NCBI GenBank assembly: GCA_037042915.1
Contig: CM073201.1
Span: 1 to 64,000, forward strand
Length of the DNA stretch: 64,000 nucleotides
Source: Auricularia sp. M13
Taxonomy: Eukaryota > Basidiomycota > Agaricomycetes > Auriculariales > Auriculariaceae
Direction of reading: 5' to 3'
This document shows positions 16,234-45,777 of the stretch, one piece after another. A program made the translations under genes and the position numbers. The first letter of the stretch is position 1. Every line of letters begins with the position of its first letter. The notes below the pieces were generated by a model that saw only the letters and a program-made list of their open reading frames with translations, was not told the DNA's origin and ran no database searches.

Positions 16234-16839
16234 TCACGAATGTTTCACAATATACTGAGTTTGAGTTTTTTGCAAGGCCTGTTGGATGATAACTGGGTCG
16301 TTGGTTGCACGGTAGTATGCGTCGCCCACCGCGTATTGATCGTCAAAGGTCACTTCAAGCAGCCGCATAAACCGCTATAATGAAAGCATGAGGTTGGAAG
16401 GGTCGTGATGCAGGAAGACATACGGTGAGGGATGTACATGCACATGGCTGGTAGTATTCGCCTTCGTATCTATCGTAGAACTGAAATGTGGGCAAGCCGA
16501 TGTCGAACCTCAGCTGGATGTCCTGCATAACGCCGTACACCCGCTCGAGCGTTGTCGCCTGACGCTCAACCTCGTCGTGAACGGCAGATTGATCATTCCT
16601 AAATGCAGCAAGCGTCAGATTCATCCACCCCGTCTAAGTGAACTCTTCGCGAACGCATGAGAAAGGGAGAGATATGTCTGAATGACGCTGAGTTGCTCCG
16701 AGAGCCTCGTACGCAGCCCGCCGACCTCCTTCCTCCCGCCGAGGATACTCCATGCTGTTACCGCCCATTACTGACACCACGCGACCGCGCCAACCTTACT
16801 TGTCATCCGCACCTTGAACACGGCCAACTTGCTGAGAAT
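16234..16839 (-). pseudogene. C-terminal part of the gene split by the 28.7 kb element
   Basis: Read on the minus strand, this begins ILSKLAVFKVRM and continues SILGGRKEVGGL, IQTYLSLSH, then IQLRFDIGLPTFQFYD and a last exon RFMRLLEVTFDDQYAVGD, ending at 16234. It is colinear with residues from about 90 to the end of the intact paralog at 46750-47628. A TAA replaces the tyrosine codon of the paralog's WRQYWAM, and one intron donor has lost its GT, as expected for a gene dead since insertion. Its missing N-terminal part is the fragment at 45516-45777, also minus strand. The two join exactly at a shared 10 bp sequence. The family is a common Agaricomycete one of unknown function. Confidence 0.82.
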
Positions 16840-16872
16840 GGGCTATCTCAAGCTTCTTTTATCTGGTATATT

Positions 16873-17190
16873 GGTCCCAACTATCTATACTAGTAGACTT
16901 GGGTCCCAAGTCCCAGATTTCTCTGAGACCCGTTCTCAACTCCAGCACCAAGTCCCAAAGTTGGGACTCGGTCCCGAGGAATTGAGCACCAGAGTCCAAA
17001 GTCGGGACCAAGTCCCAAGTTTGGACTCCCAGCCAAACTCCCCACCGAGTCCTGACTTCGGGATCAGGTCCCACAGTCGAGAAGTCCCAAATCCAGGACC
17101 GAGTCCCAGGTCTCAACGGTCACCGGGATATCTGGGACCAAGGTCCCAAATCTCAACCGGTCCCGGATTCCCTGGACCCAAGTCCCGGAT
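16873..17190 (+). repeat. Left subterminal GGTCCCAA-type repeat array
   Basis: About 320 bp is made mostly of degenerate copies of GGTCCCAA, AAGTCCC and GGGACC separated by 5-20 bases, oriented chiefly C-rich on the plus strand. It starts directly inside the left terminal repeat. A matching array of opposite orientation lies inside the right end. Subterminal arrays of this kind usually serve as transposase binding sites; that role is inferred here. Confidence 0.75.
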
Positions 17191-17259
17191 TCACCTCGGA
17201 CGGCCCAAGCCCAAAGTCACAATTTTATGTACATCGAGGAATACAAGCTATCAAACACT

Positions 17260-18560
17260 TCATTTTTTCAGCCACACATGCTGCAGCGCTCCATCGGCGC
17301 TCACTCGCGCGCTCACATCTCTCTGCAACAATCCTGCCAACCAGTCGCGAGCTAGTTCACTCAGAAGATTGCGCATTGTGACAAAAACATTACGCACCTT
17401 CCTCACCAACACCGTATCCCTGCAGCTGCACCCAGTCTGGCCTGAACGCCCCTGTTAACATGAGCATCGGCGTCTCTCCAGTCAGGCTAAAGTCGATCAT
17501 AAGAACGGATCTGCACGAGACCGATGGCACTCACTAGTCATAGAGAGTCATTCCCAGGCTCCACAGGTCTGCGGCGACGGTGTATCGTCCACAGTCGACG
17601 ACCTCTGGGGCCCGGTAAGCAGGTGTTCCCGCTAAGCCCTGTGTTGACGGTCAGTCACCCACCGTGCGAAGCACGCTGCACATACCGTAACCCAACCCTC
17701 CTCCGTGGCGACAGCGGCCACACCAAAATCGGCGAGCTTGACGTCGAAGTCGCCTTCGCCACAAACCACAACATTCTCCGGTTTGATATCCCTGTGCGCG
17801 ACCGCTCGCGAGTGGAGGTGCATCACAGCGGCGCAAAGACCACGCGCAGCGGTCTTTGCGAGACCAGTGTCTACAATTATCAACATCAGTATAACCCTAG
17901 AATCATAACACGCACTACTCACTCAGTCGTCCCTTCGTTGTAACGAAATCCCACAGGTGTCCGCCCGCAAGGTATTCCATGACGAGGCACACGTGCCCGC
18001 GCTCCTCGAACACATCTTCGAAGGCCACGATGTTCGCGTGCGATAACAGAGCCAATATCCTAGCCTCGTCGAGAAGCTGCTCGCGACGCCATGAATATTC
18101 TGTGCGCACGGCCTGCTTCGATATCTTCAAGGCGTAGACCAACCCGCTCGACATGCACGCGGCACTGTAGACGACACCGCATGCCCCGCTACCAATACTG
18201 CGTCGGTTGAGCCCACGCCCTTGTGCCGTGTTGAGGAGCGAGGCATACTGTTGCTGAAGCTCGTAGCGTTCTCGAACTATATCTTCCACGTTTTCCTGGC
18301 TGTACGCAGAGAATCCCCAGTCCTTGACCGTTGTGCCGTCGTATATGATCTGCTGTACGTGCCATCTTTTAGTTGAAGTACAGCCAGATATGCCCACCTC
18401 GTGCGCACCTCGTCCCGACAGTTTGTCGATGGTTCTGACGATCTGGCCATCGCCACGCGCGGGCTGTAGACGGAGACGTTCATCGGTCCAAGCCGTTGCT
18501 CGCGCACTTCGCCCTGTGAGCTCGATACACCGTTTTTTGCCTTGAAGTGCAGTTCGCGGC
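17260..18560 (-). CDS. FHA-linked protein serine/threonine kinase (Chk2/Rad53-like layout)
   Basis: The kinase core is complete and split by small introns. The Gly loop is GSGACGVVYSA, the ATP lysine lies in VYALKISKQ, the catalytic loop is HRDIKPENVV, and the Mg motif is KLADFGVAA. After an intron come the APE region GTPAYRAPEVV and DLWSLGMTLYD, then two further exons ending SADGALQHVWLKK, stop at 17260. The N-terminal part has the spacing of an FHA phosphopeptide-binding domain (LSGRGAHEVGISGC, KRWHVQQI, DGTTVKDW). No start codon is visible in frame after 18560, so at least one upstream exon is missing from the model. FHA plus CAMK-type kinase is the layout of DNA-damage checkpoint kinases. 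The gene is the closest to the left end of the 28.7 kb element, which suggests cargo. I see no stop or frameshift in the core. Confidence 0.78.
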
Positions 18561-18921
18561 TAGCGCGCCGCGATACGCTTCGCGTGTCGCGCCCACTCGA
18601 CCCCCAAGAGCGCGGGGCAGGACGCCGTGCCCGCATTCTGCACGCGTGGCGCGGCTTCCTCCACATCTAGCTGTGCTGCGCCGTGTGGCTGTTCGATACA
18701 ACCCGCGAGCTTGCTTGTGGGCGTCGCACGCGACCTTCAAGAACATCGCGACGCCCGAGCGCGCGTGAGGACGTGCGCGTTCGCCGGTACCCTCTGGACG
18801 CGCTCCGCTTCCAAGCCTGCTGGCCTCCCCCGCCTTATGCCGCGCCATTGGCTAGGCAAGACGTTCTTGTACCTGGCGGGCTTCATGGCTGGGAAGGCGC
18901 ACTCCGAGTCCTTGTGCTGCT

Positions 18922-20054
18922 GTGCGCGAGACGACCTCCACGAGCTCGTCTCCGTTCGCGCTCGCCTTGAGCACGACCGCCAATCTGCACGCCGTCTCGC
19001 TGCCGGCAGCACCAACGCCGTTGCTCAAGCCCGCATCGTCGACCGAGCTCCTCCCCTTTTCCCTCTGGGTTATCGCATCGCCCACTGCGGCTTCGCAAAG
19101 ACGCGCCCAATCGACCAACTCAGACACATTTGGGCACCGGCTGACGGTCGCGCTCGTGGCACCGGCGGACGAGATGCCTCAGAAGACGACGCGGTTCCGT
19201 TACGAGGTGAGGGCGCAGCCCGTCTCGAACCAAACCTCTGCCGCCAGCATGATCTATTTGCTGCGACGTGTTGCGTACAACTTGCGGCTTCTGTTCAGCA
19301 TTTCATCTTTTATCCTAGACGAGAGGTCGTCTGAGCACTCACCTTCTGCAAAACAGTTCCGCTCATGCTGTCCTTCGTCGTATACCTCACATATGCCGCG
19401 ACGACATTCAGCCCGCTGCTGTGGCCCAGCAGCCCCTTTCGGTCGCAGCTTACGCCGATCATGCAGCAGTGCTGGAACCTGTTCATTGGTATTGTGCGGC
19501 GGCGGCAGTCGGGCCCTGACGACGCAGCCAGGGCCGACGACCTGTGGAGGAGCATCCCCGCGCATGACAAGCCCCACACCCTTGCGTCCGCGCTGTCCTG
19601 GCTCAACCAGTCGATCCGTTCGCCCGACATGTTTACCGCGTTGCTGAACGCGCTGGGTGAAGTCAACCTCGGCCGACCCACCGCGCAGAGCCTACCATCG
19701 ACTATGCGCCAGAGCATCCTGGACAGCATACAATCGGAAACCCACTACGACCGCCTCCACAAGACGCGTATACCTACAGAGCGCCTGTCGCGGTACTTCC
19801 GCGCCGTGTCCAATATTGTGACCAGCGACGACGATGCCCATCGCATCGGTTCGCAGTTCGCGCATGCCCTTGTCAAGCGCGCCATGGCGGAAAGCGACGC
19901 GCGGTCGCCTAGCTCTTTGTCTCGTACTCACACGATGTCGAGTCTGACCACGCGCGCCTTGAGTTCCGATAAGGCGTTACCCATGGACTCGTCGTGCACT
20001 TCGCCGTGGCCTCCAATCACTGCGTGTCTGTCAGTTGACATTCGTCCTGCGTGA
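18922..20054 (+). CDS. Hypothetical protein with a possible membrane segment
   Basis: An open stretch at 18922-19209 reads into a likely intron near 19210-19350 (acceptor before CTGTCCTTCG). It is followed by 19365-20054 with one hydrophobic segment (MLSFVVYLTYAATTF) and then a soluble helical region: QCWNLFIGIVRR, LASALSWLNQSI, ERLSRYFRAVSNIVT. Composition and codon use look like coding DNA in this strand, but I recognise no domain and the exon joins are not proven. It lies between the kinase and the KDZ transposase within the large element. Confidence 0.45.
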
Positions 20055-20099
20055 TTTCCTTGATCTTGTTTTTGATATCTGCGCCCTTTTGTAGCACCT

Positions 20100-20728: not shown

Positions 20729-23700
20729 CTACTTCGCAGCCGCCCTTCCCTGTTCTTTGGCGCGCGAGGTAGCGCTGAGACGAGCCCGCTGCTTTCTCCC
20801 GCGTAACTTCATTTTCCTGTCCCTTTTTTCTGCGGATAACTCGCGCCGTCGATTCCAGATGGCGAGAAATGCGTAGCCAAACAGAATTGCGTGGGCTTGC
20901 GACAAATATGACAGTGTCTTGCGTATCTTTCGAAGCCCCGAGTTTCCGCATTCCGCGGCGCTCGAGTTGATATGTCTGAGCTGCGAGTTGAAGTGCTTGT
21001 AGTTGTTGATAAAGCACGCCGGCGAACAGCGTGAGTGGCCCTCCTTGTGAAACTCGTCGATGAGGAAAATCGTGTCCTTGAAGAACTCGGCCTCGCGCAG
21101 CATGCAGTAAGGCGCGAGTGCGCACGCGAAGTCGTATATCACGTATTTTGGCGCTTTCTTCCAATGCGTGAACAGAGCAGAAAAAACGTCGTTGCGCCCC
21201 TCGCCGTGCGGTATAACGTGGAACCCGAGGCATACGCTGTGCGTGCACCAAACTGCCATTAGTCCGCCGGTGATGCCTTTCTTCACGTAGGCCTCATAGT
21301 ACTTCGAGCAGCCGACCGCCCGCCCGATCGCTGACAGTCGCGCGCTCCGTCTTCTTGTCTGTCGGTAGACGCGGATATGTCGGTCGGTCGCGAACGCGCC
21401 GTCGCCCATAGAACGTTCCTGTCTGGCCGAGGTATGAGAACTGCTGCTCCTGTGTACGCCAGATGCTAACTTACTTCGCGCCAGTCTTCCTCGCTTGGTT
21501 CAATCGCCGCCGATTCCGGATCGTTGCTTGACAGGCTAGCCAGGCTTCGTATCGCGCGATCTACGACAAACCGCGCGACGTCCTTGACGGGTTCCGATAT
21601 CGCACCGTCAAGCTGAATTTCATGTCGAAGAATCCGTCCCAAAGCAGGAACGATACGCAGCAGAGCTTCGGCCGATTTTGCATGTCCTGATTTCGCAACG
21701 AGGTCGAGGGACTCCCAAGACTCGCGTGGTGCGAACTGGATGACTGGCTCATATGCGAGCAGCTGCTGGGATATCAGCTTATGTTGAGCGGAACATCATC
21801 ACTGTCAGTCACCTGTTCCAACAGCTCGAGATAAAGCTTCGTTTGCGGCTCTGTAACTTCTCTCCACGTCGACCGTACATGCGTCTCGAACAGTTTGCCC
21901 AGCCCGACGTTGACTTTCTTCAACTCTTTCGCAATCCCGGGGAGGCTCTTCTGCATGGCGTCGTCCTTCTCATCCATATCTTGGCGACGCTTCTTCGCGC
22001 GCCGCTGAGCTGCGGTCTCGTCCACGTCTGCGTCGACGAGCATGGTATCGAATATGGACTCCTTGGCGTCGCGGCCTTGCGCCGGCAGCGGGCTCTTGTT
22101 TCCCGCCCCAACCTTTTTCCTCCATCGAACCGCGTTCTGCGCTCGGGTTCGCAATAAACCCGTAACGAGGGTTAACTTTTCCGACGGCGGTAAGACGTTG
22201 TCCCTGACGGTGTCTCCAGTCGTGGTCGGCGGCCGGAGAGTCCCCGACTCCAGTTTAGCGTCGAAACCGGCTGTGACGCCGTCGAAAATGACAACTTCCG
22301 GGCTGTCTCCGCACTGGGAGCATGCGAAACTGTTGATGAGTTGCTGGATTCTCAGGAACGAGAACCAGACTTTGCGTAGGGTGGTATCGGATACGAAGGC
22401 CTCCGGCGAGCGGTGTTCGATATAGCTATTGACAGTGTGCTTGCAAAATGCGTGGAAAGGCGCCTCGTAGCTCGTCATGCTGCTCGTGAACGAGTTGAGC
22501 AGCTCGTGACTGTAGAGGTGCTCGTTGTTGTAGTTGAATATCCCGAGCTCCCGCATGTCCGGTCCGCACCGTTTGCGGCACGACGAGCAGCGCTGAACTT
22601 CGATCGTGGCCTCGTAGGCGCGAACTGAGGTGTACACGATGCACTTCCTATCCTGGACGGGCGCCAGCGCCAAAGCCACACCGCCACATGCACACCGAGC
22701 GTCTGTGTCGATCCTAAACCTGGCTGGGAGAGGATCGACCAGTGCAAATGACGCAATGTCATCTCGAGGCAGACGCGCCCATTCCGGGGGTGCGACGGGC
22801 AGGTAGGACACGCTGCGATGAGTCTCTGGGCTGCGTGCTTGATGTTCTTCTTGACATGTCAGCACACTACTAATGCAGATATCTCTCTGGTGCGCTCACC
22901 TGGGCCCGGATTCTCTGCCTCGGCATGGTGACATTCGCCGTCTTGCTTGCGGTGGTCATCCGGCGTTCCGTCCTGACCGCTCAACTCAAGAAATACAGCG
23001 TTCTTGCGGGCCGAGGCGATGTGCTCGCAACCGCGCCCGTGCTTCCGACAGAGCCACTGTCCCGCGTCGACTGAGTGCCCATAATGAGACACAATGGCCT
23101 TGCCCCGTGTGCGCGAGCCGCACACGAACATCGACAGTGCCGGTCCGCAATCCGCGGTCTTGTCGCGGCGAAACAGCACGGATTCGGGGTTATCTGGCGG
23201 TCTCGTTAGCACGCGACAACTCGCCGTGCAACTCGCGCCCGCCGACTAACCATATTCCGAGAATGATTTGAATCTCGGTCTCTCTGAGTCCTGGACCAAT
23301 CGCGTGTGCACGCAGCGCCCTCCCTGAGTAAAATCCGGGCATGGACTGCAGGTGTAAGACGACTTGTGCGACGCCGTCACCTCGACTTCGATCACAGTCC
23401 ACCCGTCCACACCGTCGATCCCTTCCAATTGATCCCAGTCACACAGTTGTGCGACCCATGTCCTAGGATCTATCTGGAAAAATCCAGAGTCCGTTGCTCG
23501 ACTGCACGACAGTACACCGGATACACCTCTTTCAGGGCACTGTTACACGCTTTCGGTTTGCGACGACCGGGACTTTTACATAGGGAGGACGATTGGGTAC
23601 ATTCAATAACATGATTCGGAGGTGGGCGGGGTGGTGAGGTGTGCTTCGGCAGATTGTCATCCGGGAGGGACTTGGGAATCGTTCTGGCAGGTCCCCGACC

Positions 23701-23881: not shown

Positions 23882-25080
23882 GGTAACTGCCCAAAAAAAA
23901 AAGGTGGTTTAATCACCAAAATCACGATTTTTTCCAGGGGAATGCGTACAGAGTCCGAGAGCGACGCGACTTGACACGCGTAGGGCCTTCCTGGCCGCAC
24001 GCCAAGTGCAACCACAGCGAGCGCAGCCCACTCCTGATTACCACTACACCTAACGTCTAGGGTAGGGCTGTCAAGGACGAGGGCCGAAGGGGAAGGGGTG
24101 GGGTGCGCGCGTGCTGTGTGAGCGGAGAGACTGAAGATACGGATGATTCCGTTCGAGTCCGAAAGCACTTGTCCCTCGCGCGCCCTCCCCGCCCCGTCGG
24201 CGACCACCCGAGACGATTCGGTGTGGATCGCCGACGGCTCCCATCAGTAGTGCCACCTCCCATCACGCTGCGCCGAGCTACCCTGTGCTGCCCTGCACGC
24301 GACACCCAGTAGCGCACTCTGGATTTCCGGTGGTCGCAGATCTGCGGTTGCCAGATGGCGAATATCTCTCCGTCGCGTCATCTGCGGTTGCCATATTCTG
24401 TCGACAACGACAAGTCGCGACAACGTGCATCTGCGGGTGCGGTAGAGGTTTCACAAGGTGCCAGGCCGTGCTGCTGCGGGCCAACGCGTTTCCTCCATAC
24501 TCATCTCATGCGCGTCCACCCAGACCCATCCAAGCCTCAAACCAGGATACCGATAATTAAAGCCCGTGTCTGTTCCTCCAGTCCGTGTGGCCCCATAGCC
24601 CATCATGTGCATTTTCGGCATAATGAAATTCCACTTGAGTCGTACCTGTATCACCCCTGCTGCTGCTGCGACCAATCGAGCGGTTTCAAAAGCCCTCCCG
24701 CTCCATCAAGGATCTGCAAGTTCTATTATCCCGCAAATGCATCCAAGAGTCAGATATTCGCCCTGGGACCGTACAAGCACGGGCTCGCCGGTATATGACA
24801 TTAGACTGCATTACTGGCATCCACTGGCTCACGTCCTTGACAGACATTTTTTCCGCTGGAAGGAAATCAGGTCTGATACCAGATTTTGCTGACCGACTGG
24901 ATCTTCGGTCAGTAGTTTAACCCGCAATCACAGCGCACAATCTTGCTGATTTGCATTCACTCATTTTCTTCGACTTCTTAGCTTGATACACACTTATGCA
25001 TAATCCAGTCTCAATCAACTTTCGTGGAAACTAGAATGACATTGGCAATAATTGTGTATCTAGTGCTCAAGGCGTGCATA
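23882..25080. other. Intergenic inside the large element
   Basis: No frame with domains or consistent splicing was found. It holds an A10 tract at about 23895 and phrases such as GATCTGCGGTTGCCA repeated twice near 24.34-24.40 kb. It probably contains the promoter of the transposase. Confidence 0.45.
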
Positions 25081-25084
25081 CGGT

Positions 25085-27303
25085 TCAGCGGCGGCGAAGG
25101 CGGCGCGCTCTGAGCGCCATCTTGACCACTTTTGACTGGAGCTGCTCGTTCGCCAGGTTCGCGGCGATCAGGGCGTCCTCTGCGTCCTTCTTGGCCTTAC
25201 GAAGCTCCTCGACTGCGGCTGCCGTCTCGGCCGCCTGCTGCTGCCGCGCCCCGGTCATCTCACGGAACCACACGTCCCGGATTGCTTGGGGCAGGGTGGG
25301 CGCGTCGACCTCGACGCGGTCGCTGTGCCACGTGTATGCGTGACCGAGCCCTTCCTTGGGCATCGCGACAATCATAACCGACGCGCCGAGGCAGTCGGCC
25401 AGATACTCGCCCTATGATGAACTGCGTCAATGACTGCGAGTCACCACTTCCGAGGGTGAACGCACCTTCTGGACCACCGAGTTGACCATGGGCTTAAAGT
25501 CGTGCTTGACGGTCTTATGCACAGCTTGCACGCGAGCCCACCTTCCTGGGTAGTTGCGCTTGTATGCTGTCCACGGATCGAACGGTCAGTACGGCGAGCA
25601 ACAGCGACGAATGAACCAGACTGACTGATATTTTCGCCCGCAGCGGAACTTCCTTTCCACCCATTGCCGATGACCGTTGTCGCGTTGTCCTCCTGCTTTT
25701 CAAGTGCAACGCGCTGGTCGACCGTCTTGCTGAGGAGCTCGCGCAGAGCCGTGGATTTGGCGGCGGCGGATTTGGCGGCGGCAGCGGCGGTGTCAGCGTC
25801 GGCAGTGGCAGCAGTCTTCGCGGCAGCGGAGTCGCCCGTCTTGCAGGCAGCCAACAAGGCCTGCTGCTCGCTCACCTGCTCCGGCGAGGGATTCGCCATC
25901 TCCAGTGCGACCTTCTGACGGGTCTTGTCCGGCTCGTCCGCGATCTGCTGGTGCAGTTTGACGAGTCGCGTTTCCGAGTCCATGTCGTCGTCGCTGTCAA
26001 TTATGCCGATGTACGCCGCCTGGTTGAAGTACTCGCCAATCGGTTCATTGTCCACGAGGTCCACGCCGTCCATCCCGGCGGCTGCAGTGGCGTTGGCATC
26101 GGTGTCCTCATCGGCGTCGTCGTCGTCGTCGTCGGCGTGTTCATCCGCATCCCCGTTGGCACTGGAGTCGTCCTCGCTGGAGCCGACGTCGATGTCCTCG
26201 TCGGCCTGCACATTTGCGCTGGACTCGTCGTCACTGGCACCGTCGACCTCAGTGCCATCCTCGCCGACTCGTCGTCGCTGGCGCCGTCGCTGTCAGCATT
26301 CTCCTGGCTCTGGGTGTCAGCGTAGTCTGTGTCCTGCGTATCATCGCTGACATGGTCCTCGCCGCACTCACATCGTCAGCGGTGTTGGCGTCCTCGCTCA
26401 TGGCCTCGGCGACGCGGCTGGACTCGTCATCACTAGCACCGTCGACCTCAGTGCCGTCCTCGCTCGACTCGTCGCCGCTCGCGTCGTCGCTGTCAGCGTT
26501 GTCCTGGCTCTCGTCGTCAGCGTGGTCTGCGTCCCTGCGTATCATCGCTGACCTCGTCCTCGCCGCGCTCACGTCGTCAGCCGCCTTGGCGTCCTCGCTC
26601 GCGCTCTCGTCGCCAGCGATGTTGGCGTCGTCACTCTCGGCATCGCCGTCGTCCTCGCTCATGTCTTCGCAACGCGTCGTCCTCGCCGTTGTCCTCGCCT
26701 TCTCCGTCGTTGCCGTCGGTCGCATAATCGTGGTACCCAGTGATTCCCGCCCACTCTTCCTCCTCGTCTTCCATCTCGACATCGCCTGCGACGTCGGACG
26801 AGGCGGCTGGTCCCAGCGAGATGGACGTGGTGCGGTGGACGAGCACGAGCGCAGAGTCATCGCTGCCTTCGGATTCTGAGTCCAGCGACATCTCGTCGGT
26901 CTCCGCGCCCGCCTCGAGCAGGGCGCTGGCCTTCTTTACGTCGTCCAGCAAGGCCGCCTGACGAGTGTCCGTCTCCTTCGCCCTGGCAGCTTTTTTTGTG
27001 AGCTTGGGTGCGGCAGAGCTCGCTCCGAAGGAACCGCCCTGCGTCCTAGCCTGCCAAACGTATATCAGTCGTCGACGGTTAGATAATGGCGGAAAAAAAC
27101 ACCCACTGGGCAATGCGTCCAGTGGTGGTGCACGTTGCGACCACTGCCTGAGCAGGTCTTGCACACCGGCACGTTCTTCCTGGATGTGGCAGACGCTTTG
27201 AACGCGCGCCCGACCGCGCCTTGGAGACCTTGACCGGCGAGCCGGGGCCCGAGCGCAAGCTTCGGCGGCGCGAAGTGGTTTGTCGGCGAGTGTTGGGCGG
27301 CAT
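25085..27303 (-). CDS. Acidic, Ala-rich nuclear-type protein with a small zinc motif
   Basis: A minus-strand gene with several introns. Near the N-terminus is VCKTCSGSGRNVHHHWTHCP, a likely Cys/His zinc site. A long Asp/Glu/Ser-rich region follows, built partly of repeats (ADDVSAART, GASDDESS, SEDAN) between 26.66 and 26.0 kb. Next comes an Ala-rich helical part (TAATADADTAAAAAKSAAAK), then a compact C-terminal domain, YKRNYPGRWARVQAVHKTV, DFKPMVNSVVQ, GEYLADCLGASVMIVAMPK, and a terminal coiled coil. Introns at about 27.11-27.05, 25.63-25.56 and 25.48-25.41 kb keep frame; the exons between 26.6 and 26.2 kb and the true start are unsure. It is divergent from the gene starting at 27.66 kb and is not a family I recognise. 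Confidence 0.6.
26230..26660. repeat. Imperfect tandem repeat coding acidic segments
   Basis: Units of about 210 bp containing GACGACGTG/AGCGCGG-type phrases recur (for example around 26340-26400 and 26530-26590), encoding ADDVSAART-SAMIRR on the minus strand. They account for the repetitive acidic part of the host ORF. Confidence 0.5.
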
Positions 27304-27657
27304 GGCGAGCGTCGAGGTAAGAAAGCGTCGAGGAGGTGTTCGTGTGTTGCGCGGGGGGAAAGGCGAACGAACTGCACCAGAGCAAGTCCGCCAAATGATA
27401 TCTGGGACTCAGCCCAGCAAGCACTTGTGTGTCTGTGACACCGTCGGCTTCTCACGGTATCATGCTAATTATTTATTTTTCGCAGGGTTCTCTCGGATCC
27501 ATCATGACACCAACGATCCCGCGGCGCGGCATGTGCTGCCCTGACCGAGGCCTGGGAAAGTTCCGCGCTGGGAGATCAAATCGACTTGGCCAAAAATTTC
27601 AGTCACGGTGCGTCGGCGATTGCTTTGGAGTGAGCGCGTTCTCACATAAGGCAGCTC

Positions 27658-29525
27658 ATGCGAGAGCCGACGCCTGTCGCCCAAACGCCCCACCCCCCCA
27701 TGACCACCAACGACCGCAAAAGCAGCAAACGCGACAACCTCACGCGCAAGGCCAGCGCCGCCCGACACCGTCCACCGCCTGCCTCAGCACCGGATCCTCC
27801 TCACCGCAAGGCGCGCGCTGCCGCAAAGCGAGCTGCAGACAAGCTTCTATGCTCCCCGGACCATCCCGTCCAGTCAGTCAAACTCCCGGGAGAACCCAGC
27901 CGCGACCGCATGCAGTGCCCTCTCTGTGGTGCGACCGGCGTAGTCGACCTCTGGCGCACGCCTGGCAAAAACGACCCAGGGAAGATCTGGTTCGGTGTAC
28001 GTGTTCGTTTGTGCTCATCGCCTGTCAGCTTAACGTCTCTCAGTGCGCGGCCGCCTGCAAGGACGACATCAAGGAGCTCGAGAACTCCTTGGCCGGCCCG
28101 CACAAGCGCTCACTTTCGTCGTGCTTTGCGTCCTTCACCAACGACGACCTATGCTTCGAGTCCTGGGTTCCGAACTTGCTGCGCGCACTGTCTGACGTTG
28201 GCAGCTCTCCCACCAAGTCTGACAAGGCCAGGCCGGCATCCAGGCCTGAAGACGTCCGCGACGCCGCAGGCAGCGACGCTGCTGCCGACGATTCCGAGAT
28301 CAGCAACACCGCAGGCAGTGACGGTGACCGCGACGGTCCCGACGCCGCCCCATCGACCGATGACGAGGTGCGACCGGCTCGCCGTCAGTCCGCGGGCAAG
28401 AAGACGAACGACGAAGATAGCCAGTCCAGCGCTGGCAGCGACGTCGGCGCCGAGGATCCGTCCGATTTGGACATTCAGATCAATTCCCGCTATGTCTTCG
28501 TCTTCCTCGAACTCCTCGTACGTGCTGGTTACCCGCGCACACGTGAACTTTGCTCACACTGTCATAGGACGGCAAATCCAAGATGGTCATGCACCGGTTT
28601 GCCTTCGACAAGATGAACTACTGCGACCTGGACAAACGCACGAGCAAGTACATTGACCAGCATCACGGCGTGCTGTCGCTCGAGGGCTGGCACGGCCCAA
28701 CCCACGAAAAGGGCTGGAAGACTTTCACCAACATCCCGCCCCTCGATGTCGTCCCCATCATCGACAACGAGGTCAAGTTGCGTATAACGTACAAGGACCA
28801 TCCGCAGGGCCCGCGCCGTCCCGCCACGCCTGACCCGGTGCCGGAAAAGCAGCGCGAGACCTCTGTCGTCATCGATTTGACAGTCAGTGACGACGACGAA
28901 GCCAACGTCGGACTGGACGCCGCCATCGACTCGGATTACGAGAGCGGGTTTTTCTCGCCGCCGTCACCGCCTCGCTCCGCGAAATCATCCAAGACCCGCA
29001 CCGCGAAGTTGGGCTCCCTCAAGCAGCTGAAGCCCGATACCGCCAAAAGCTCCGCCGCCATCAAAACCGACCGCTCGTCGCGCGACCAAGTCCACCCCGA
29101 TCCATCGCGACGCCCTCGGAAACAATACCAAAACGACCTCGGCGACCAGCAGCGGCGAGAAGAAAGCCGATGCAGTCGGCACCAAGCAGCCTGGGCTGGC
29201 GGCGAAGAAGAACACGGCGAAGGACGCGGCGAACAAGGACGCGGCGAAGGTCGCGGCGAAGACCGCGGTGACGACCGCCAAGTCTCCGCGAGATGGGAAG
29301 GCTACCTCCCAGCGCGCGGAGGGCTCTGGCAAAGGTGCGCCGAAGGTCACCGCTGCTGGCGCTAGCGTCAGGAAAGCCATGGGTACCGCGAGTGTCAAGA
29401 GGAGCGGGGCCGTGGCTCAGAGCGCATCGCCGTCGACTTCTAAGTCGTCCTCCAAACGGCCCGCGTCGCGCGGGCTCGATGAATCGCCCAAGAAGAAGAG
29501 GAAGATCAATCCGTTTTCGTCTTGA
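27658..29525 (+). CDS. Zinc-motif protein with acidic middle and nuclear localisation signal
   Basis: Exon 1 ends with CPLCGATGVVDLWRTPG and NDPGKIWFG. After an intron at 27998-28043 it continues CAAACKDDIKELEN. The Cys spacing around GKIWFGCAAAC resembles a GRF-type zinc finger; this is suggestive only. A Ser/Asp-rich linker follows, then an intron near 28.52-28.57 kb and a folded-looking domain (MVMHRFAFDKMNYCDL, YIDQHHGVLSLEGWHG, IDNEVKLRITYKD). A second acidic stretch and a long Lys/Ala/Ser tail end in SPKKKRKINPF, a classical NLS. Near 29.08-29.12 kb the frame changes, by a short intron or a frameshift. It is divergently arranged with the gene at 25.1-27.3 kb across about 350 bp. The two look like partners of one transcription unit pair within the element. 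Function unknown, probably nuclear and nucleic-acid related. Confidence 0.62.
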
Positions 29526-32780: not shown

Positions 32781-32847
32781 GCGCACCGCATGACGCGAAC
32801 TGTGAGTACGATTTTCTTCGCTGTCATTCTGCTTGCCTGGGTGGCAC

Positions 32848-33675: not shown

Positions 33676-36600
33676 ATATTTCACAGCGAACCAAAACACC
33701 TGCCGCCTGCCGCAGACGAGGTGTGTCACCGTGAGTACCAAGCGCAGACATTTGTTAGACAAAGCTCAAGTCGCATCGGCGGCGCTGCAGCCCAGATCAG
33801 CTCATACTACGGATGTGAGTACAGCTGGCTCTCGAATGAGACCAGTCATCCTCATTGATGCTCACCGCCTGATACAGACTGAATTCGCGAAGCGCGATGC
33901 CAAAGTGGAAGAAACGGCGGATGAACCAAGCGGAAATGGAGGCGTGGAGGACGAGGAGGGAGCAGAGCGAGAGAGAGAAGCTCGAGCGACAGAGGGAGGA
34001 GCGGGAGCGCGTGGAGATGGAGCGACGGGAAGGCGCCGCTCGGTCTCGAGGGTAAGGAACATCAATGATGCTGACACGATGACCGAGACTCATGCTGTGG
34101 CAGCGAGGGCGGCAGCGGCGACGGAGCTCGCACGGCGCCCGAGCTGAGGCACGGGAACGATGAGCGGTGCGTGTCTGTCAACTCGCCAATTAACACAGCT
34201 GACATCAGCGCAGGGAGCGGCTTGGACGAGCCAGCGAGGACGAGTCGCGAACGGAAGAGTAAGCACTGCTGAAAATGTATATTCTAATGTCCTGAATGTA
34301 CGTAGGGAGCCCGTCAAACGGCCAGAAGACTTGACCATTGAAGACCTGGCGGGCTATGAGTGAGCCGCTCAACGGTACCTGTCAAACAGATCTGACGGTG
34401 TATTTCACAGCATCAACAAGTACCACGGCACGAAGGGCTTCGTCGTGGGCACGACGATGACTTGGCGGCAATACATGGAGGGCGGCCGGGTCTTTGGCGA
34501 TCCCTCGTTTCAGATGATTGTCCCGAAGAAATACCAGGGCATGATCCCGACTATCGACGTTGTGCAGAGAGATCCCACATTGCAACATCTCGTCGGCGTG
34601 GCGTGGGAGCTCTGGGAGGCGAGGAAACCGCCAGCGATACCGCGCGCACCTTCGCCGCCCTCAGAACTGGCGTTAGCCTGGGGGGAGACGGAGGACGCGA
34701 AATCGACATGGACGCCATACCAGTACTACTGGCCGTCCATAGACGACCCGACATGGGTCGTCTACTCCAACCGCGTGATTATGCCGCCGCCGCCGACCGA
34801 CCCAGAGAAAAAACTGCGGGCAGACGCCCGCTATGGAATCCATGAGCGCCAGTGGCTCCCGCAACACTGTGCGTCGGAGCGCATGAGGCCGTATATGGCT
34901 TTCATCCCGATGCTGCGGCCCTGGAAGCGCGACGAAAGACACCTGTTCGAGCGAAACGACACTTGGTTTTTCAAGACGGCCGAAAGTCCAGATCAAGACA
35001 TCGCCTGGATGAGGTTCGACAAGGAAAGGCACACGGTTGCGGCGGCAGAGGGACTTTGGAGGTTTCGAGACAGTGTACGGGCAGCGGTTCGTCAGGAAGC
35101 CACGCGCACGCACCTCGCCTGGGACGAGGCGAGGGATATGGCCGGGTCACATGAACCCTTCTGGAGGCAGTGGGAGAAATACTCCGGCAGCATCGACAGG
35201 GAACATACCGCGTCCGCCATGGCGTACGTGATGTCCGAGTCTGGGACGGAGTGGGTCCTGCGCTGCGCGCTCGGCGCCTTTCAGCGCGGTATCCTCGAAG
35301 TTAGAGGCTACATCGAATACCTCAAGGCCCTCTACAGGATGCGCGACCTCAGCATGTATGACAAGCATCGTCAACTTGAGCCGACGAGGGGCGAAGTCGC
35401 CCGGATGACCCGATACTTCAATCGGAGGGATTCCCGGGGCGTCTTCGTCGAAAACCAGGATGACGCTGTAACGTTCGCCCGGTACGGCGTACCCGTGTGG
35501 TGGGTCGAAAAGTACAATTCGACCAAGCACGGAACTCGGTTACATCGTCAAGACGGGGTGCCGGTTCTGTCATATGGCTTGGTCCCCGAGTTGGACGAGA
35601 TAGTCTTCGAGGATGCGCCGTGCAAAGGGCACGATTCCGTGTCGCTGCTTGCGACGCGGAAGCAGCAGGAGGAGAAGGAGAAGCACGAGGCGGCAATGGC
35701 AGCTGTGCATCAGGAACAACGGGCAGGGTACGTGAGATTATGCAAGGAAAATTATCACTGGAGTTGACAATACACAGGTTTCAAGGCGAGGAAGGTCAAG
35801 CCGGCGACAATGGCGCCCCGTCTGCGTTTGACATCGACGAGTCGGACGTCGCGTTCCAGCATGAAGCACGGCAGCGTCCAGGTGGTGCTGAGGCAGGGTA
35901 CGCGCGATTATACAAAGAAAATTATCACTGGAGTTAAACAATACCCAGGTTTCAAGGCGAGCAAGGTCAAGCCGTCGACGATGGCGCCCCGTCTGCGTTT
36001 GACGTCGACGAGTCGGACATCGGGTTCCAGCATGAAGCGTGGCAGCCTGCAGGTGCTGCTCAGGTTGGCAGAGAGGTCGTCACGAACCGGCGACCCGATA
36101 CGCCACCCAAGAACACTGGCGCGAGCTCTCCGGCGCGCTCTACATCATCCACGTCGCGTCACGTCGACGCGGATGGCGCATCGGATGATGGCTGGGTGCA
36201 GGCGGACGACGCGCGTCTTGAACCGGAGGAGGACGATTCCGACTATGAAGCCTTGCTGCGCGAGCAGACCATGAGGAAGCTGGCTCAGTCGCAAAAGCCA
36301 AGGCGACCACCGCGCTGGTTGCTCAAGCCCCACTCAAGTAATGTTTCCACCCAGCAGCAGCAAGGCGCCTCGGAGACGGTCGAGGCGGTAATTGCGCCGC
36401 TCGCGAGTGCGCAAGAAGGCGTGACACAGACGGCGACCGCGGAAAATCATTCGCCTGCGACTGTGGCCGAGGACGAGACGCCAGACTTGAGGGGCGCGAC
36501 TCACGTCGACAACGCCGATATCTCAACAGGCGATCTCCCAGCCAGCGGAAGTCCCGCGAGTACAGCAGCGGATGTACAGCACCGCGTTCGACGACGGCGC

Positions 36601-38010
36601 CGACCTGCCCGACTACGAGGAGGACGAGACGGCGCACCCGCATATAGCGAGAGCAGGAGCGGACCAGCCAGCAGGGTCGGACAGCGGTGTGATGAGGTTG
36701 GACAGCTCGCAACCGGCGGTGGTGGAGGGCGGTGTGATGAGGTTGGGCAGCTTGCTGCAAAAACGGAAAGGTATGCAAAATGGAGAAATACTTAGGGATT
36801 CATGCTAACCGTAAGAGAAGATCCTCCTACCGCGGCGGACGCTCCTGCGCCGGTGCGCCGAAAGCGAAATGCGCAGCGGAACACGATGCTGCACAAGACC
36901 CTCAAATCGATGCCCGAGGGCGCGCAGCTCAAGGGACTCTTGATTCGCATGACCACGCGGTGGGAGGCGCAGTATGATCTCCCGGACTGGTGGCCGAGCA
37001 CGCTCCAGGTTGGGACAGAGGCGGCACAGTACGTCGACAAGAGCAGGCAGCGCGAAGCCCGACTCGCGGGCTGCACGAATCCTGTGCCGCAGCTTCACAA
37101 GGGCGCGAAGACGATTCACAAGATGCCCACGCTGGACTATTTCGCGAACGCGTGGTCGAACCGCAGCGTCCAGCAGAAGACCAGCAAGCGCAACGTCTTC
37201 CAGGGCCTGTTCAGGTGGCTTCAAATCCGGCCATACTATCTCGCGAAGATCGCCAGCGACCCGATCGACGAAGACGAGGGATTCGAAACGAAGCAATGGC
37301 GAGAAATCATCAAGGGCGTCATGCCCAACAGGGAGTCGCGGCCGATAGTCAAGCGTCTCGGACTCGACGTCGCTCACGCGACGATAACGGCAGGGCAGGA
37401 CGCTGTCGATGTCGAGAAAGCCGAGCGGCTGCTCTCGCTGAGGCCGCTGCTCGAAAAGTTGAAGGACAAGTGCACCTTCGACGGCCACGAGTTGCCGCCG
37501 CCGCCGTGGGATTCAGAAGAATCGCTACCGCTCAACTGGGTGAGCTACATCGTCTGGGAGCTCGCCGAGCTTGAGTTCCGCTACGACATGCTCGACCTTG
37601 CCATGAGCATGCGTCGCTGGTACAGCAACATCCCCGAGCTCCAGGCCGTGTCGACCCTCGAGTACTATGGGTTGGTGAAGGACTGCTGGGCAGGCGGGAT
37701 CGAGATGGTCAAGCCGACTCGCGAAACTTGGCTGTGCTCGAGCAATGCGCGCGAGCGCTTGCTCGCGTTGCGGTCCTTCGCAGAGCTCATGAGGTACTGG
37801 CCTCGGGCGAGCGAAATGCTCGGGCCTTGGAAAGATCACTGGGACGCCGACAATGACGCGCCCGCGCTCGAATCAGACGAGTTCCGAGAGCTTGAACGCA
37901 GCGCCTGGGTTTGCTACCAGCAAACCTTTTACGACCACCGCGGGCGCATGGCGCCGTTGCCCTGCAGAAGACCTCCGCCCCCCTTCGCTGTAGAAAACTC
38001 GCAAGACTAA
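32853..38010 (+). CDS. Large multi-exon gene of unknown function with duplicated exon modules
   Basis: Many exons read in one consistent phase. The 5-prime part has two-exon modules (STAVPVDIEH-HEN joined to DEMYLAAERSSGPRPDVGDR). Then comes a charged coiled coil starting MPKWKKRRMNQAEMEAW at 33897, a linker, and EPVKRPEDLTIEDLAGYD joined to INKYHGTKGFVVG (34371-34410 region). A long domain follows (34410-35727: DPSFQMIVPKKYQGMIPTID, WTPYQYYWPSIDDPTWVVYS, ARYGVPVWWVEKYN). Two copies of an exon FDxDESDxxFQHEA come next, then an acidic linker and a C-terminal domain (36802-38010: LIRMTTRWEAQYDLPDWWPS, LPLNWVSYIVWELAELEFRY, LMRYWPRASEMLGPWKDHWD). Near 36.55 kb the frame changes in a way I could not assign to an intron. 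The start is uncertain. The Trp-rich domains match no family I know. It is the largest cargo gene. Confidence 0.62.
35728..35949 (+). repeat. 170 bp exon-intron tandem duplication
   Basis: An intron (start 35728) plus exon (FQGEEGQAGDNGAPSAFDID) is followed by a second copy of the same intron (start 35898) and exon (from 35950). The period is 170 bp. Both introns share GATTATnCAAnGAAAATTATC. Both exon copies remain in frame with the flanking exons. Confidence 0.85.
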
Positions 38011-38525
38011 TGTGTATTGTGTATGACGAGACCATCTAACTTACTGTAGTAGATAAGACTGAACAGCTGTATGTAATATTCAAGCGCGTCGAAAAATGGT
38101 AGGTGCAGCGGGTGCACTATTGACATTTCGAGCAGCACAGCGCACCATGATGTGCGGAGAACGGAATAGGTAATGTAGGCAGGGGAGGAATCGTCGGTCA
38201 GCCGAGCGACACGGTTCAATAAGGGACATGGTAAGTATTTTTTTTTTTTCATTCCACCAGAGGGAAAGGTTTATCTGACAGGCAGACTCTTAGTTGACGA
38301 CCTATCGACCGTCGATGAATCCGGGGAGGAGTTGGCGAGTTGTGTAGAAGGTCTGCAAAGTTTTAACTGAAAAGTGAGCGCAGCTCACTGGGCTCAACAG
38401 TGAGCGTCCTCTGCGCACCTGCAAGACGTTGGTTTCCGGGCAGTGCGGGTCAACGCGCTTCCTCGTTCATTGAGCGTAGTCTCGCGCTGGCCTACACTGC
38501 ACGTGAATGAGCGTCGCGCAAGGCG
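38011..38525. other. Intergenic inside the large element
   Basis: This is the 3-prime flank of the large gene. It contains a 13-base T tract near 38236. No gene or repeat is seen. Confidence 0.45.
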
Positions 38526-40899: not shown

Positions 40900-42046
40900 T
40901 AGTGGATGTTGCCGATAGACGACACGTCGGCGACACTTACGACGGCCATGGCATATTCACAGGACACCCTACAAATTCTCGTTTACTTTGTGAAGGCTGC
41001 GCAGTCTCGGTGCTCAATGTACCGCTTACAATGTCGGTTTGTTCAGCGGCGGCGTCGCGATTCCCACGCTGCCAGACACGGTCCACGCGCGGCACTGGAG
41101 CCTGTGCATCAGAATCGCGAGGGCGTACCGCCCAGCGCACGCGGACACCCACCAGACACGACTCTATCCTCGGCCTCCCTGCGCCGTCGCCGTCCGCAAA
41201 GTTTGCGCACTTCACGGTCAGCGCACGTTTGCGTACTTCACCGTCAGCGCGCCGAGCCTCATTCCGCCGTTGCCGTGCTCGAAGTTGCTCATGGAGTCTA
41301 CTCACAGTCCGTCCGCAGCAGGGTCCGTCCGCAGCAGGTCGCCCGACCTGACCTGTTCAGCACGAGCACGAGCACGGCTGGTGACGAGGCGCCGCGCTCG
41401 TCGCTGGCGTGACACTGTCCGACTCGGACTGCGATGAGTCGCGAGCGGTATACGGCCCAGTGTCAACAGCACGTAGAGAAAGCTTGCTGTACGCAGCTTC
41501 CTATTCATGCCTTGCCGCTCGCGCTGACGGTGTTGCGTCAGATCTCGGACAACAAAGTGTTGATCTTCGCCATCGGCGGCGGGTCGCACGCGAATTGTCG
41601 GTCGCGCGCACGGGCCGGCCGTGCGCCATGTCACCCAGTTGCTCGTTGTTGGAGGGGCCCAAGGCAGCGCCGAAGACATCGACGCCGTGTGCGTCCTGCA
41701 TTGCACGATCCAACGACGATGCAATGTGCGCGTCGCAAGCGGCTATCTGATAGGTGGATGTCTCGTTGCTGCTGGTCATGGCGAGAGCAGCAGGAGCCGG
41801 CCGACTTGCTGTCATTCTTGACAGCGACCATTGGCCAGCTCCTCTTCCTGTTCCCAGCGCCGCCCGCCTGCTCTCACCGCGCGTCCACCGCTCTTCTCCC
41901 GTCATCGCCAATGCCCCTGCACACGCAGACGCGTACAGGCGTCGTCAGCCGAGCCGCAGAGACGCAGAGGCAGACGTGCAAACACCTCCCGGCGCGCCCT
42001 CACCTGCTCGCTTGCTCGTGTACGTGCCCAGCACCCCCGCCGTCCC
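40900..42046. other. No gene recognised; short GC-rich repeats
   Basis: The stretch contains two adjacent copies of TTCACGGTCAGCGC/TTCACCGTCAGCGC (near 41210-41260) and of GTCCGTCCGCAGCAGG (near 41308-41340). Frames on both strands are of similar length and lack domains. Confidence 0.4.
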
Positions 42047-43015
42047 TTCTACGGCTGGCTCACCTGCTACACGTGCGTCACCGTCCTCGCTCGGGCAACT
42101 CGCAGCCTGGAGCTCAAAATTGACGTTGTTTGTTGCGATTCAGAGCAAAAGTTCTTGCACACTTCATCCGTTCGGACTGGACGCACATACACGGACATTG
42201 CGCGCAAGGCGTTCGGCCCGCGCGCGACGGGCTTCACAACCGCGCTCTTCTTCCTCGAGCTCTTCACGCTCTCCGTCGTCCTCGTTACCGTCTTCGCCGA
42301 CAGCCTGCACGAACTCGCACCCGCCTACTCGGCTGACGCGTACAAGGTGCTCGCATTCGTCATGTACGTCCCCACCCCATGCCCCCACAGAAATAATGTA
42401 GCTGACGTTTGTAATCCAGCCGCCTGCCAACAGTGTTTCTCCCGCTCACGCTGCTGTCGTACGCGTCACTCGTCGGCGTGACGTCAACGCTGTTCATCAC
42501 ACTTGTCGTGCTCTACGACGGGCTCGCCAAGCGCAAGGCGCCGGGAAGCCTGTGGGACCCCGCGCCGACGCGCCTTGAGCAGCAGTCGCCGCTCAAGCTC
42601 AGCATGGTGTTCGGCCTGTTCATGGCTTCTCTGGCCATGCCGTCATCCCCAGCCTCGAGCTCGACATGGACAATCCCAAGAAGTTCGACCGCGTCATGAA
42701 CATCGCTTTTGTGAGTCCACCTCGTTCTCCCTCCTTCATCCCCATGCTGACAGTTTGCTGTTGGCAATGTAGACCGTAACGACGCTGCTGTACACGCTGA
42801 TGGGCGCCTCGGGCCACCTGATGTTCGGCGACGCCGTCTCGCAGGTGTTCAGCCAGGACCTGCTCCCCACGCCCGGCTTCGCCAGCTCGCTCAACACCTT
42901 CTGCGCCACGTTGCTGGTGATCACCCCGCTGACCAAGTTCGCGCTCAACTCGCTGCCGATGTTGGCGGCAGGCTGGTCGCTCGGAGCAACACGGTCTGCG
43001 GCGAAGACAAAATAG
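42047..43015 (+). pseudogene. Fragment of a vacuolar amino-acid transporter (AVT/AAAP) gene
   Basis: The fragment starts mid-gene at FYGWLTCYT. After an intron (about 42078-42150) it continues AKVLAHFIRSD, then TYTDIARKAFGPRATGFTTA, FFLELFTLSVVLVTVFADSL, YKVLAFVM, an intron, FLPLTLLSYASLVGVTSTLF, a cytoplasmic loop, ELDMDNPKKFDRVMNIAF, an intron, TVTTLLYTLMGASGHLMFGD and FCATLLVITPLTKFAL. These are transmembrane segments from the middle of an AVT-type proton/amino-acid transporter. The first helices and the last ones are absent, and a frame change lies between FIRSD and TYTDIA. Introns are kept, so the piece came as genomic DNA, not as a processed transcript. It lies within the large element and looks like captured host DNA. 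Confidence 0.82.
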
Positions 43016-44210: not shown

Positions 44211-44529
44211 GTGAGGCAGGAGTCAAATGTGTTTGGGTCCGTGAGCCGTCCGACAGCATGTACGCCGCACATGGCGTGCCATCCGAATCCACGAACGGTC
44301 GCAGAGCTTATGCGCGTTGGCGACTAAGGAGATCGCATCCCGCCTACGCCCAAGTAAATGCTCTTGCTGCATGGGTGAGCTGTGTGAATCGGCTGCTTGC
44401 ATGCAGGCTTTGGCTCATATTTTGCGCTCCTTTCTTACTAGATTGTAAGATACGAGGCCAATGGGGATAAAGGGGAACAAGGAGATGTGCTACTATGGAC
44501 AGAACAGGTACAATATCAACAAGTTTGGT

Positions 44530-44903
44530 GCTCGTGGACCCATAGGCACCAGGCGAGAGAGCAGGTCGACCGATATGGCCAGGGCAGCCGCGACGCAGTT
44601 TTCGGCGGCGACGACGCGGTTCTCAGCGTCGTTGATGCAGGAGCGGCCGCGTTCGGCGATGGCAGCGCTACACTCGGCGACAGCGATGAGATCGCCAGTG
44701 TGCTCTGCTCTGCGCTGACCGCGCGCTCGTCAGCAGCAGCGACGAAGGCGGCGGCGTTGGCCTCAGCAGCGGCCGCGCGATCGTCAGCAGCGGCGGTACG
44801 TGGTTCTGCGCGCTACTCTGCGGGGACCACGCGCTCGTCAACAGCAGTGACGCGGGCTTTGGGGGTGCCGCTCTTTGGCAATGGGCATCTCGAACTCGGG
44901 GGG
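44530..44903 (-). CDS. Short Ala-rich helical frame related to the coiled-coil genes
   Basis: The minus-strand frame reads TAVDERVVPAEYRAEPRTAA, DDRAAAEANAAAFVAAADER and AVSAEQ before losing the heptad pattern. It resembles the heptad genes at 40.0 and 43.3 kb and may be another decayed paralog. No start or splice signals could be fixed. Confidence 0.35.
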
Positions 44904-45324
44904 CTACTGTAATTACAGTGGCCTGTAATTGAGGTGCGGGCACGGATGCTGGCAGAGTTCAATTACTCCGATGTACAGCGGGTTTTTGGTCAAAAGCCGA
45001 GCTGTGATAACACGGCGGCGAGGCATTGGAGAGAGACAAGTCGGAAAAAAAAAAAAAAAAGCGCGTCGGCGAGCTCACTGAGCGGTTGTATTGGGTCGCT
45101 CGGTGGGCGAAAGCAGCTGCTGGCAGGGCTGTCACTGATCAATCCACCAACCCGCCGTGGATACCCTGTTGGGAGAACCTTGGTGTCCGTGGTTCAAGAC
45201 ATGCGGAATATTCTGACTGTATTACATTTATTATGGCAGATACTACGGAGTGTTAAATTTGAATGTGTTTGGGACTACATTTTATTTTATTTTTCTCGGC
45301 ACCATAAGTTGCTAGTATGTCAAA
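44904..45324. other. No gene; A-rich tract near the right end of the element
   Basis: The stretch contains a run of 17 A (about 45043-45060) and an AT-rich segment (45220-45310). No frame of interest was seen. Confidence 0.5.
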
Positions 45325-45486
45325 GTTGGGACTTGAGGAAAGCTGGGACTTGGGACTCGATTTCTTAGGACCTGTAAAAGTTGGGACCTGGGACTGGGTT
45401 CTTGGGACCGGAATATGAGGGGTGGACTGTAGTGTGGAAATTGGGACCTGGGACCCGAGTCTGTAATATAAGGAACTTGGGACCAT
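45325..45486 (-). repeat. Right subterminal TTGGGACC-type repeat array
   Basis: Copies of TTGGGACC, GGGACTTGGGACT and GGGACCTGGGACT recur every 10-25 bases, G-rich on the plus strand. This is the inverse orientation of the array inside the left end (16873-17190). The array runs directly into the right terminal repeat. Confidence 0.75.
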
Positions 45487-45515
45487 TATACTGAATACAG
45501 GAGTGCTTATATACC

Positions 45516-45777
45516 TGCTGAGAATAGCACGTAGGACGGCATTGCACGCAATGAGAGCATGCTTGATCCCATGTTCGACGGACGGCTCGAGCGGCGTCCG
45601 GCGTTTTTCGATCGAGGCCTTAATGCGCTGTAGCGCGCGCGTGAACGAGTCGATATCGATGATGAGCTCGCGGATTTTAGCGGAGGCGCCGGTCGCCTCG
45701 CTCAGCGCTGCGCGGAGCTGCCATGCGAGCTGTAGCACGGCGACGATGTCTCCGAACGAGCTGAAGGAGATGGGCAT
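45516..45777 (-). pseudogene. N-terminal part of the gene split by the 28.7 kb element
   Basis: The frame starts MPISFSSFGDIVAVLQLAW at 45777 and continues RAALSEATGASAKIRELIID, DSFTRALQRIKASIEKR and CNAVLRAILSR, then runs into the element's right end. The paralog at 46750 reads FNAVGDFIAVLQLAWQLRAA in the same place. The last codons before the break (ATTCTCAGCA on the minus strand) are repeated at the start of the C-terminal part at 16830-16839. No other damage is seen in this part. N-termini of this type occur in many Agaricomycete proteins of unknown function, some linked to STAND or ubiquitin-like architectures. Confidence 0.85.

Follow-up and report, generated by a model that had tools for sequence, protein, structure and literature searches.

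Near the start of a contig of the fungus Auricularia sp. M13 (CM073201.1 in assembly GCA_037042915.1), two parts of one gene lie on the same strand with almost 29 kb of other DNA between them, and the question that this locus raises is what that DNA is and how it came to be there. The stretch that we analyzed, hereafter the window, comprises the first 64,000 nt of this contig, and an earlier note on it had suggested that a single bounded element had split the gene. We compared the window with the whole assembly (52.1 Mb, 14 contigs; the window, C9:1-64000, is without any N), naming copies of the element by contig, so that C9 is the window copy and the others lie on C1, C10 and C2. The features described below argue, with a probability that we put at roughly 0.88, for a complete and bounded giant DNA transposon of cut-and-paste type, one that belongs to the KDZ (Kyakuja-Dileera-Zisupton) group and exists in mosaic copies, and this reading rests on its bounded ends, its 8-bp duplications, an empty paralogous locus and three further copies with paired ends.

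The element spans 28,678 bp at 16840-45517, beginning with GGGCTATC and ending with ATATACCTG, limits that were set by the matches of its ends elsewhere in the genome and by the empty site. On the left, 15 places in the same genome matched 16600-17100, one being the window itself, six matching on the element side only and eight on the host side only; the element-side matches begin at 16840 (one at 16842), and the host-side matches stop at 16839 or 16840. On the right, element-side matches stop at 45517-45518 and the nearest host-side matches begin at 45513. Since matches split at the break points on both sides, the break points are supported independently of the short repeat, TGCTGAGAAT, that marks them in the window. 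When the two flanks were joined in silico, they aligned through the junction to C12:1117001-1122000 over 2,049 columns (33 gap positions, 96.4% identity), and this uninterrupted locus carries a single TGCTGAGAAT.

Exactly two occurrences of the repeat itself, both plus-strand, lie in the window (16830-16839 and 45516-45525), and it had been taken for a 10-bp target duplication around an element of 16830-45525. The duplication is real, but its length had to be revised: all four copies end in CTG, which rules out 10 bp and makes the extra TG at the window site a coincidence. The target duplication is thus the 8-bp CTGAGAAT, perfect on both sides of the window copy at 16832-16839 (where the preceding TG belongs to the host site) and 45518-45525, both on the plus strand, and the element is the shorter 16840-45517.

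Both parts of the interrupted gene (16444-16839, given as the stretch similar to its paralogue, and 45518-45786) lie on the minus strand. In each of them the repeat is translated as I-L-S, in line with the earlier note, which had the same residues encoded in both; read by eye, as were these residues, the left part runs into an in-frame stop past the junction. The neighboring paralogue that had been offered as a picture of the intact gene does span the break point uninterrupted, at 46750-47385 on the plus strand, in opposite orientation and with 69.5% identity. This paralogue (46654-48368) is a member of a gene family with multiple copies across C9 and C12; its SesA match was weak and under the cut-off (E 0.042).

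We then searched the whole genome for the ends. A 22-base left-end pattern was found exactly at seven places and a 21-base right-end pattern exactly at five and with one mismatch at a sixth, while the reversed control of each gave none. By coordinates, four of the seven left ends pair with four of the six right ends, which adds to the window copy three copies with both ends, on C1 (30.9 kb), C10 (42.3 kb) and C2 (35.5 kb). Each of the four is flanked by a different perfect 8-bp duplication (CTGAGAAT on C9, CGGCGGCC on C1, GTCTCGGG on C10 and ATTGAGTG on C2), the chance of one such perfect match being ~1.5e-5 at equal base frequencies. The earlier note had named ends that never pair elsewhere as a sign of something other than transposition; the search gave four pairs, and the three further copies with their own duplications, together with the empty C12 locus, bear out its proposal of one bounded element.

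The ends also agree with its description of imperfect inverted repeats of about 40 bp followed by oppositely oriented motif arrays. In the window copy, the left repeat (16840-16880, plus strand, 41 bp, reaching TTGGTCCCAA) and the right repeat (45477-45517, minus strand, 41 bp) match at 26 of 41 positions; the corresponding figures are 26/41 for C10, 27/41 for C2 and 11/41 for C1, the last measured one base out of register. The left array (16840-17239) holds 12 GTCCC and three GGGAC in the first 400 bp, and the right array (45268-45517), which is the last 250 bp, holds ten GGGAC and no GTCCC; single-base shuffles gave on average 0.55 GTCCC on the left and 0.2 GGGAC on the right. Across the four copies, the counts are 12-15 GTCCC (with 3-5 GGGAC) and 9-10 GGGAC, respectively; shuffles averaged less than 0.7, and no interior 400-bp window exceeded 4 for both motifs combined. 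We suppose that these arrays may be bound by the transposase.

When three mismatches were allowed, the left pattern hit 25 additional places: 12 pairs in inverted orientation, with 3.5-14.6 kb between partners, and one single. These belong to a smaller related family with ends GGGCTATG/CACATATG (C1:8696867-8700338, C3:35489-39162, C7:3352552-3367111 and nine more pairs). Among the ten pairs that were read, eight show a perfect 8-bp duplication in the place that corresponds, by homology, to that of the giant ends; the exceptions are those at C8:3389k and C9:682k. Because no KDZ place among the 150 scored of 163 candidates falls inside any of the 12 pairs, the smaller elements look non-autonomous. 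On C3, an exon of a KDZ-type transposase is interrupted by one of these pairs, 13.9 kb in length.

To identify the genes inside the window copy, we ran a six-frame Pfam scan over its full length at E 0.05 and also scanned single open reading frames (ORFs). The six-frame scan reported kinase, CxC4, Tet_JBP and Aa_trans only. The genes shared by all four copies encode a kinase, a KDZ transposase of CxC4 type, a TET/JBP oxygenase and a divergent protein without assigned family (ORF3); the earlier note had already placed a kinase and a TET/JBP enzyme inside the element. The exons of the kinase gene (17635-18559, minus strand) carry HRDIKPEN and DFG motifs, and a kinase lies near the left end in all three other copies (Pfam), with 35-61% amino-acid identity in pieces. 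The transposase gene (20732-23245, minus strand) comprises a CxC4 exon at 21777-22895 and a KDZ exon at 20732-21499, identified with the help of codon-phase divergence, a further exon at 21469-21795 and an uncertain one at 22862-23245, the splice sites being provisional. Its CxC4 cluster (PF18717) scored 136.7 bits against a cut-off of 26.9 in the single-ORF scan. A separate KDZ transposase fragment lies outside the element at 56210-56515 on the minus strand.

Beyond the transposase is a conserved core stretch (24042-28829) with pieces ~75-76% identical to the other copies and, in the Pfam scans, no domain above its curated cut-off. The TET/JBP oxygenase domain follows at 29721-30344 (minus strand); aligned to CcTet (7vpn, 8jkk) at E 4e-7, it has the HTD motif and the distal H and R, so that the catalytic H, D, H and R are all present. 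The transposase and TET exons of the window copy are open, and its kinase and TET keep their catalytic residues.

The ORF3 module (32499-38524, plus strand) is 94-98% identical among the copies, apart from its 3' part, which is 88-91% identical in C2. Its open frames (34364-35764 and 36796-38007, plus strand) are read divergently from transposase and TET. ORF3 matched no Pfam or NCBIfam family and had no relative in the PDB, where two matches of the second frame (E 0.37 and 0.99) were taken as chance, and a single-sequence structure prediction was uninformative (mean predicted local distance difference test score 34.9). Judged by eye, 12 other loci repeat this arrangement of transposase, TET and divergent ORF3, with order and orientation preserved, over spans of ~8 to 28 kb: C1:405k, C3:117k, C3:436k, C3:3568k, C4:4345k, C5:3340k, C5:4004k, C7:3586k, C8:3312k, C9:3622k, C11:3050k and C12:802k. 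The ORF3 module also contains tandem duplications at 33063-33671 (273 bp, 2.2 copies) and 35722-36064 (171 bp, 2.0 copies), and a tandem unit of similar size seems to be repeated more often at C3:280-282k.

Several observations weigh against a bounded KDZ transposon. The repeat TGCTGAGAAT is expected 0.22 times in the window and reached two or more occurrences in 4 of 100 shuffles, so that taken alone it is weak, and the empty C12 site is a paralogue rather than an allele. No partner was found for three of the seven left ends or two of the six right ends, and the 10 kb around each unpaired right end held no left end; the short left ends at C9:680k and C12:238k sit in duplicated DNA that is 95.5-96.1% alike. 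The KDZ domain (PF18758) scored 23.7 bits (E 4.6e-5) in the window ORF and 24.2 bits in the C10 copy, both under the curated cut-off of 26.6, and only the single-ORF scan gave it; because the six-frame scan missed this domain, its silence on weak domains elsewhere is itself weak evidence. Among eight listed loci ~60-63% identical to the window KDZ exon, half pass the KDZ cut-off (C8 twice, C1 and C4) and half fall just short (24.1-26.0 bits at C5, C1, C7 and C11). The TET Pfam score, 33.8 bits, is just below its cut-off of 34.9. Finally, matched stretches of the other copies contain stops: one in the C2 transposase exon, one in the C10 TET and several in those of C1 and C2, and three in the C2 ORF3. 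Introns may account for some of these, and ORF3 of C2 is itself interrupted by an insertion; from these sequences, not all copies are intact.

How far do these points favor a different origin? That chance rearrangement or segmental duplication brought unrelated genes between the gene halves, with no transposition, would fit a window that begins at a contig end, the C9/C12 similarity that shows such regions to be duplicated, and the frequency of the 10-base repeat in the shuffles. We nevertheless regard it as highly improbable, given four copies with identical end-to-end boundaries, each with its own perfect 8-bp duplication, and the like duplications of eight of the ten examined pairs of the smaller family. 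A giant element of another class (Starship-like tyrosine-recombinase, CACTA/Plavaka or Maverick) that merely holds a nested KDZ gene would be in keeping with the abundance of KDZ matches (at least 149 places genome-wide) and with the nested insertions in the C10 and C2 copies, and the failure of the six-frame scan to report another recombinase counts for little when it also missed KDZ. A Starship tyrosine recombinase captain had no match in these scans, with the same limit, and the gene at the left end is a kinase. Set against another class are the short list of domains that the scans did report, the position of the CxC4-KDZ gene within the shared core of all four copies, and duplications of 8 bp, the length given for Zisupton and Dileera (PMC12730594) and for Cryptococcus KDZ1 (PMC12810828); we consider this origin unlikely, and read the element as a KDZ transposon in what follows.

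The copies of this transposon differ in size partly through nested insertions. The C10 copy has an insert of 5.6 kb between direct repeats of 284 bp (100% identical) and an extra 7.6-kb block, in which 858-bp direct repeats (99.9%) bound ~4.3 kb and the other 3 kb are unexplained; near-identical direct repeats suggest that these insertions are probably recent elements of the long terminal repeat type. The second ORF3 open frame of C2 is interrupted by 6.5 kb of inserted DNA that carries inverted repeats of 1.9 kb (99%). Minus these nested blocks, C10 and C2 come to ~29 kb each, and cargo was therefore rejected, in part, as the source of the size differences.

Comparing segments, measured from the C10 copy, revealed that similarity shifts from partner to partner along the element. 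Its first 260 bp are 97.3% identical to C2 and 95.8% to both C1 and the window copy, and its left arm is 99.2% identical to C2, 72-74% to C1 and 69% or without a match to the window copy. The transposase, middle and TET are 98-99% identical to C1 and C2 and 73-77% to the window copy. In the main part of ORF3 all three are close (98.1% for C2, 97.7% for C1, 97.6% for the window copy), and in its 3' part the values are 90.7%, 96.6% and 95.2%, respectively. The right arm, in three pieces, is 98.5-99.3% identical to C1, with no match in C2 or the window copy at E 1e-5 and, in other comparisons, one 81-bp repeat-like match to the window copy; the last 195 bp are 100% identical to C1, 95.9% to the window copy and 81% to C2. 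The C10 copy thus combines a C2-type left arm with a C1-type right arm, and the window copy has a distant core between common ends together with the common ORF3 module. Since the groupings conflict between segments, the four copies do not share a single history from end to end; unequal rates of change as the sole cause would not yield such conflicts. C3:279-294k was also considered as a source of the window core. The two TET exons are 96% identical at the protein level, but the DNA of this locus is 86% identical over 29286-32950 and 78-91% in other pieces, which makes it, by sequence, a relative and not the donor.

Host-like DNA lies inside the copies as well. At 19360-19909 (plus strand), the window copy holds a 550-bp fragment that is 97.8% identical to an internal stretch of a host DUF6535 gene on C5, open over 741 codons, and this fragment had no match in the C1, C10 or C2 copies. 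A broken Aa_trans (amino-acid-transporter) fragment at 42045-42961 (plus strand) is 87% identical to a host amino-acid-transporter gene on C5. The intron sequence that it keeps suggests a capture directly from DNA, and a related stretch is present in the C2 copy. For these fragments, the longer open genes on C5 suggest transfer from host to element. In a scan of the left arm of C2, where C10 is 99% alike, an SMC-hinge fragment was seen (L033:5015-5438), possibly another captured host piece.

Taken together, these observations suggest how such an element might work. The CxC4-KDZ transposase would bind the GTCCC/GGGAC arrays, cut both ends and join them to a target opened by cuts staggered by 8 bp, while the element-borne TET/JBP oxygenase would oxidize methylated bases on the element and so counter silencing, an anti-silencing role also put forward by Kojima (PMC12730594). 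The kinase and the ORF3 protein may act as accessory factors. Ends that are needed in cis would change little, and arms, core and cargo could be exchanged between copies. If the gap left by excision were repaired by template switching, with another copy or some unrelated site in the chromosomes as the source, pieces of host genes could enter. Mobility of the element and the roles of TET, kinase and ORF3 protein are all inferred here.

Template-switching repair is the route to the mosaics that we prefer, at about even odds. Gene conversion or ectopic recombination between resident copies, rather than repair after excision, would give the same pattern, and the exchanged tracts do adjoin long stretches of 97-99% identity, so we see this as a serious contender, if one short of an even chance. 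It cannot alone bring in unrelated host fragments, and ectopic crossing over between chromosomes would mix flanks, whereas all four copies keep matched duplications. A different doubt concerns the window copy, which might depend for its movement on the C1/C10/C2 lineage, as a passenger in trans with common ends and a foreign core. Its ends are ~96% like those of C10 and its core just 73-77%, and the smaller related elements, with no KDZ place listed inside them, offer a parallel; on the other side, its transposase and TET exons are open and the catalytic residues of its kinase and TET are kept, and we hold the passenger reading to be possible but rather doubtful. Keeping to template-switching repair, one may tentatively picture a chassis system, that is, a KDZ lineage that keeps its ends and a gene set (kinase, transposase, TET/JBP and ORF3) fixed, exchanges its arms, is regularly rebuilt during repair and takes up host genes at the DNA level. 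It would be a cut-and-paste, DDE-type counterpart of Starships with an epigenetic defence and a conserved partner protein of unknown nature, a picture that we offer as speculative.

The cargo-moving giants of fungi that surfaced in the literature searches are Starships. With four copies whose ends are exact, host-like fragments that can be traced and an empty site, the present family makes the growth of a DDE transposon to ~30 kb testable, along with module swapping and the question of whether an element-borne TET/JBP keeps a large element unsilenced. The recurring transposase-TET-divergent ORF3 order at the 12 further loci likewise provides a defined protein, ORF3, to study.

Among known systems, the element resembles Pack-MULE-type transposons in carrying host gene fragments within a cut-and-paste element. 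Those capturing transposons have a different transposase and are usually short and non-autonomous. Features of the KDZ superfamily that the element displays are an associated cysteine cluster in the transposase gene (CxC4, PF18717), an 8-bp target duplication in all four paired giant copies, and terminal inverted repeats, though imperfect ones. It also has the hallmark of TET-positive fungal transposons, a TET/JBP domain that retains the residues binding metal and 2-oxoglutarate.

TET-positive Zisupton, Dileera and Kyakuja transposons exist in fungi (Kojima 2025, PMC12730594), and the window element shares with them the pairing of a KDZ-type transposase with a TET/JBP gene and, with Zisupton and Dileera, 8-bp duplications; CcTET is described as near the AG type of the same work. 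Kyakuja differs, with 7-bp duplications, CA..TG ends and no inverted repeats (PMC12730594), and could be ruled out, since the element has 8 bp, GGG..CTG and imperfect inverted repeats. In the excerpts of Kojima's paper at hand, a kinase (alpha-kinase) is named for IS3EU families only, and giant size and mosaic copies are not described. Like the window element, Cryptococcus KDZ1-KDZ3 have a KDZ transposase with a CxC cluster, inverted repeats and, for KDZ1, 8-bp duplications (4-8 bp for KDZ2 and KDZ3), and they were shown to move; they differ in their 9-11 kb size, in having CxC1 rather than CxC4 and in inverted repeats of 139-241 bp, with TET or cargo not stated in the part of the report available (PMC12810828).

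Starships are likewise large cargo-carrying mobile units of fungi, eight of them, of 42-606 kb, being reported from the basidiomycete Tremella fuciformis (PMC13066641), but they are moved by a tyrosine-recombinase captain, of which the Pfam scans reported none in the window element. By titles and abstract openings, a limited survey of the literature found no fungal KDZ family of comparable size with swapped arms. The nearest giants are algal: KDZ elements of up to 30.3 kb, with nested elements and accessory genes, occur in the brown alga Ectocarpus, and a 31.7-kb KDZ element seen to move in Chlamydomonas is cited in the same account (PMC12477816). The earlier note had called the size of the element unusual, which holds insofar as it is large, but these algal elements provide precedent. 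They share with it the KDZ transposase, a length of ~30 kb, nested transposable elements and accessory genes, and differ in belonging to other lineages of life and in that a TET/JBP gene and arm-swapping are not mentioned for them in the available portion of that source (PMC12477816). With ~30-kb KDZ elements already known from algae (PMC12477816) and TET-bearing KDZ elements from fungi (PMC12730594), the element is an unusually large, modular member of an already known transposon group.

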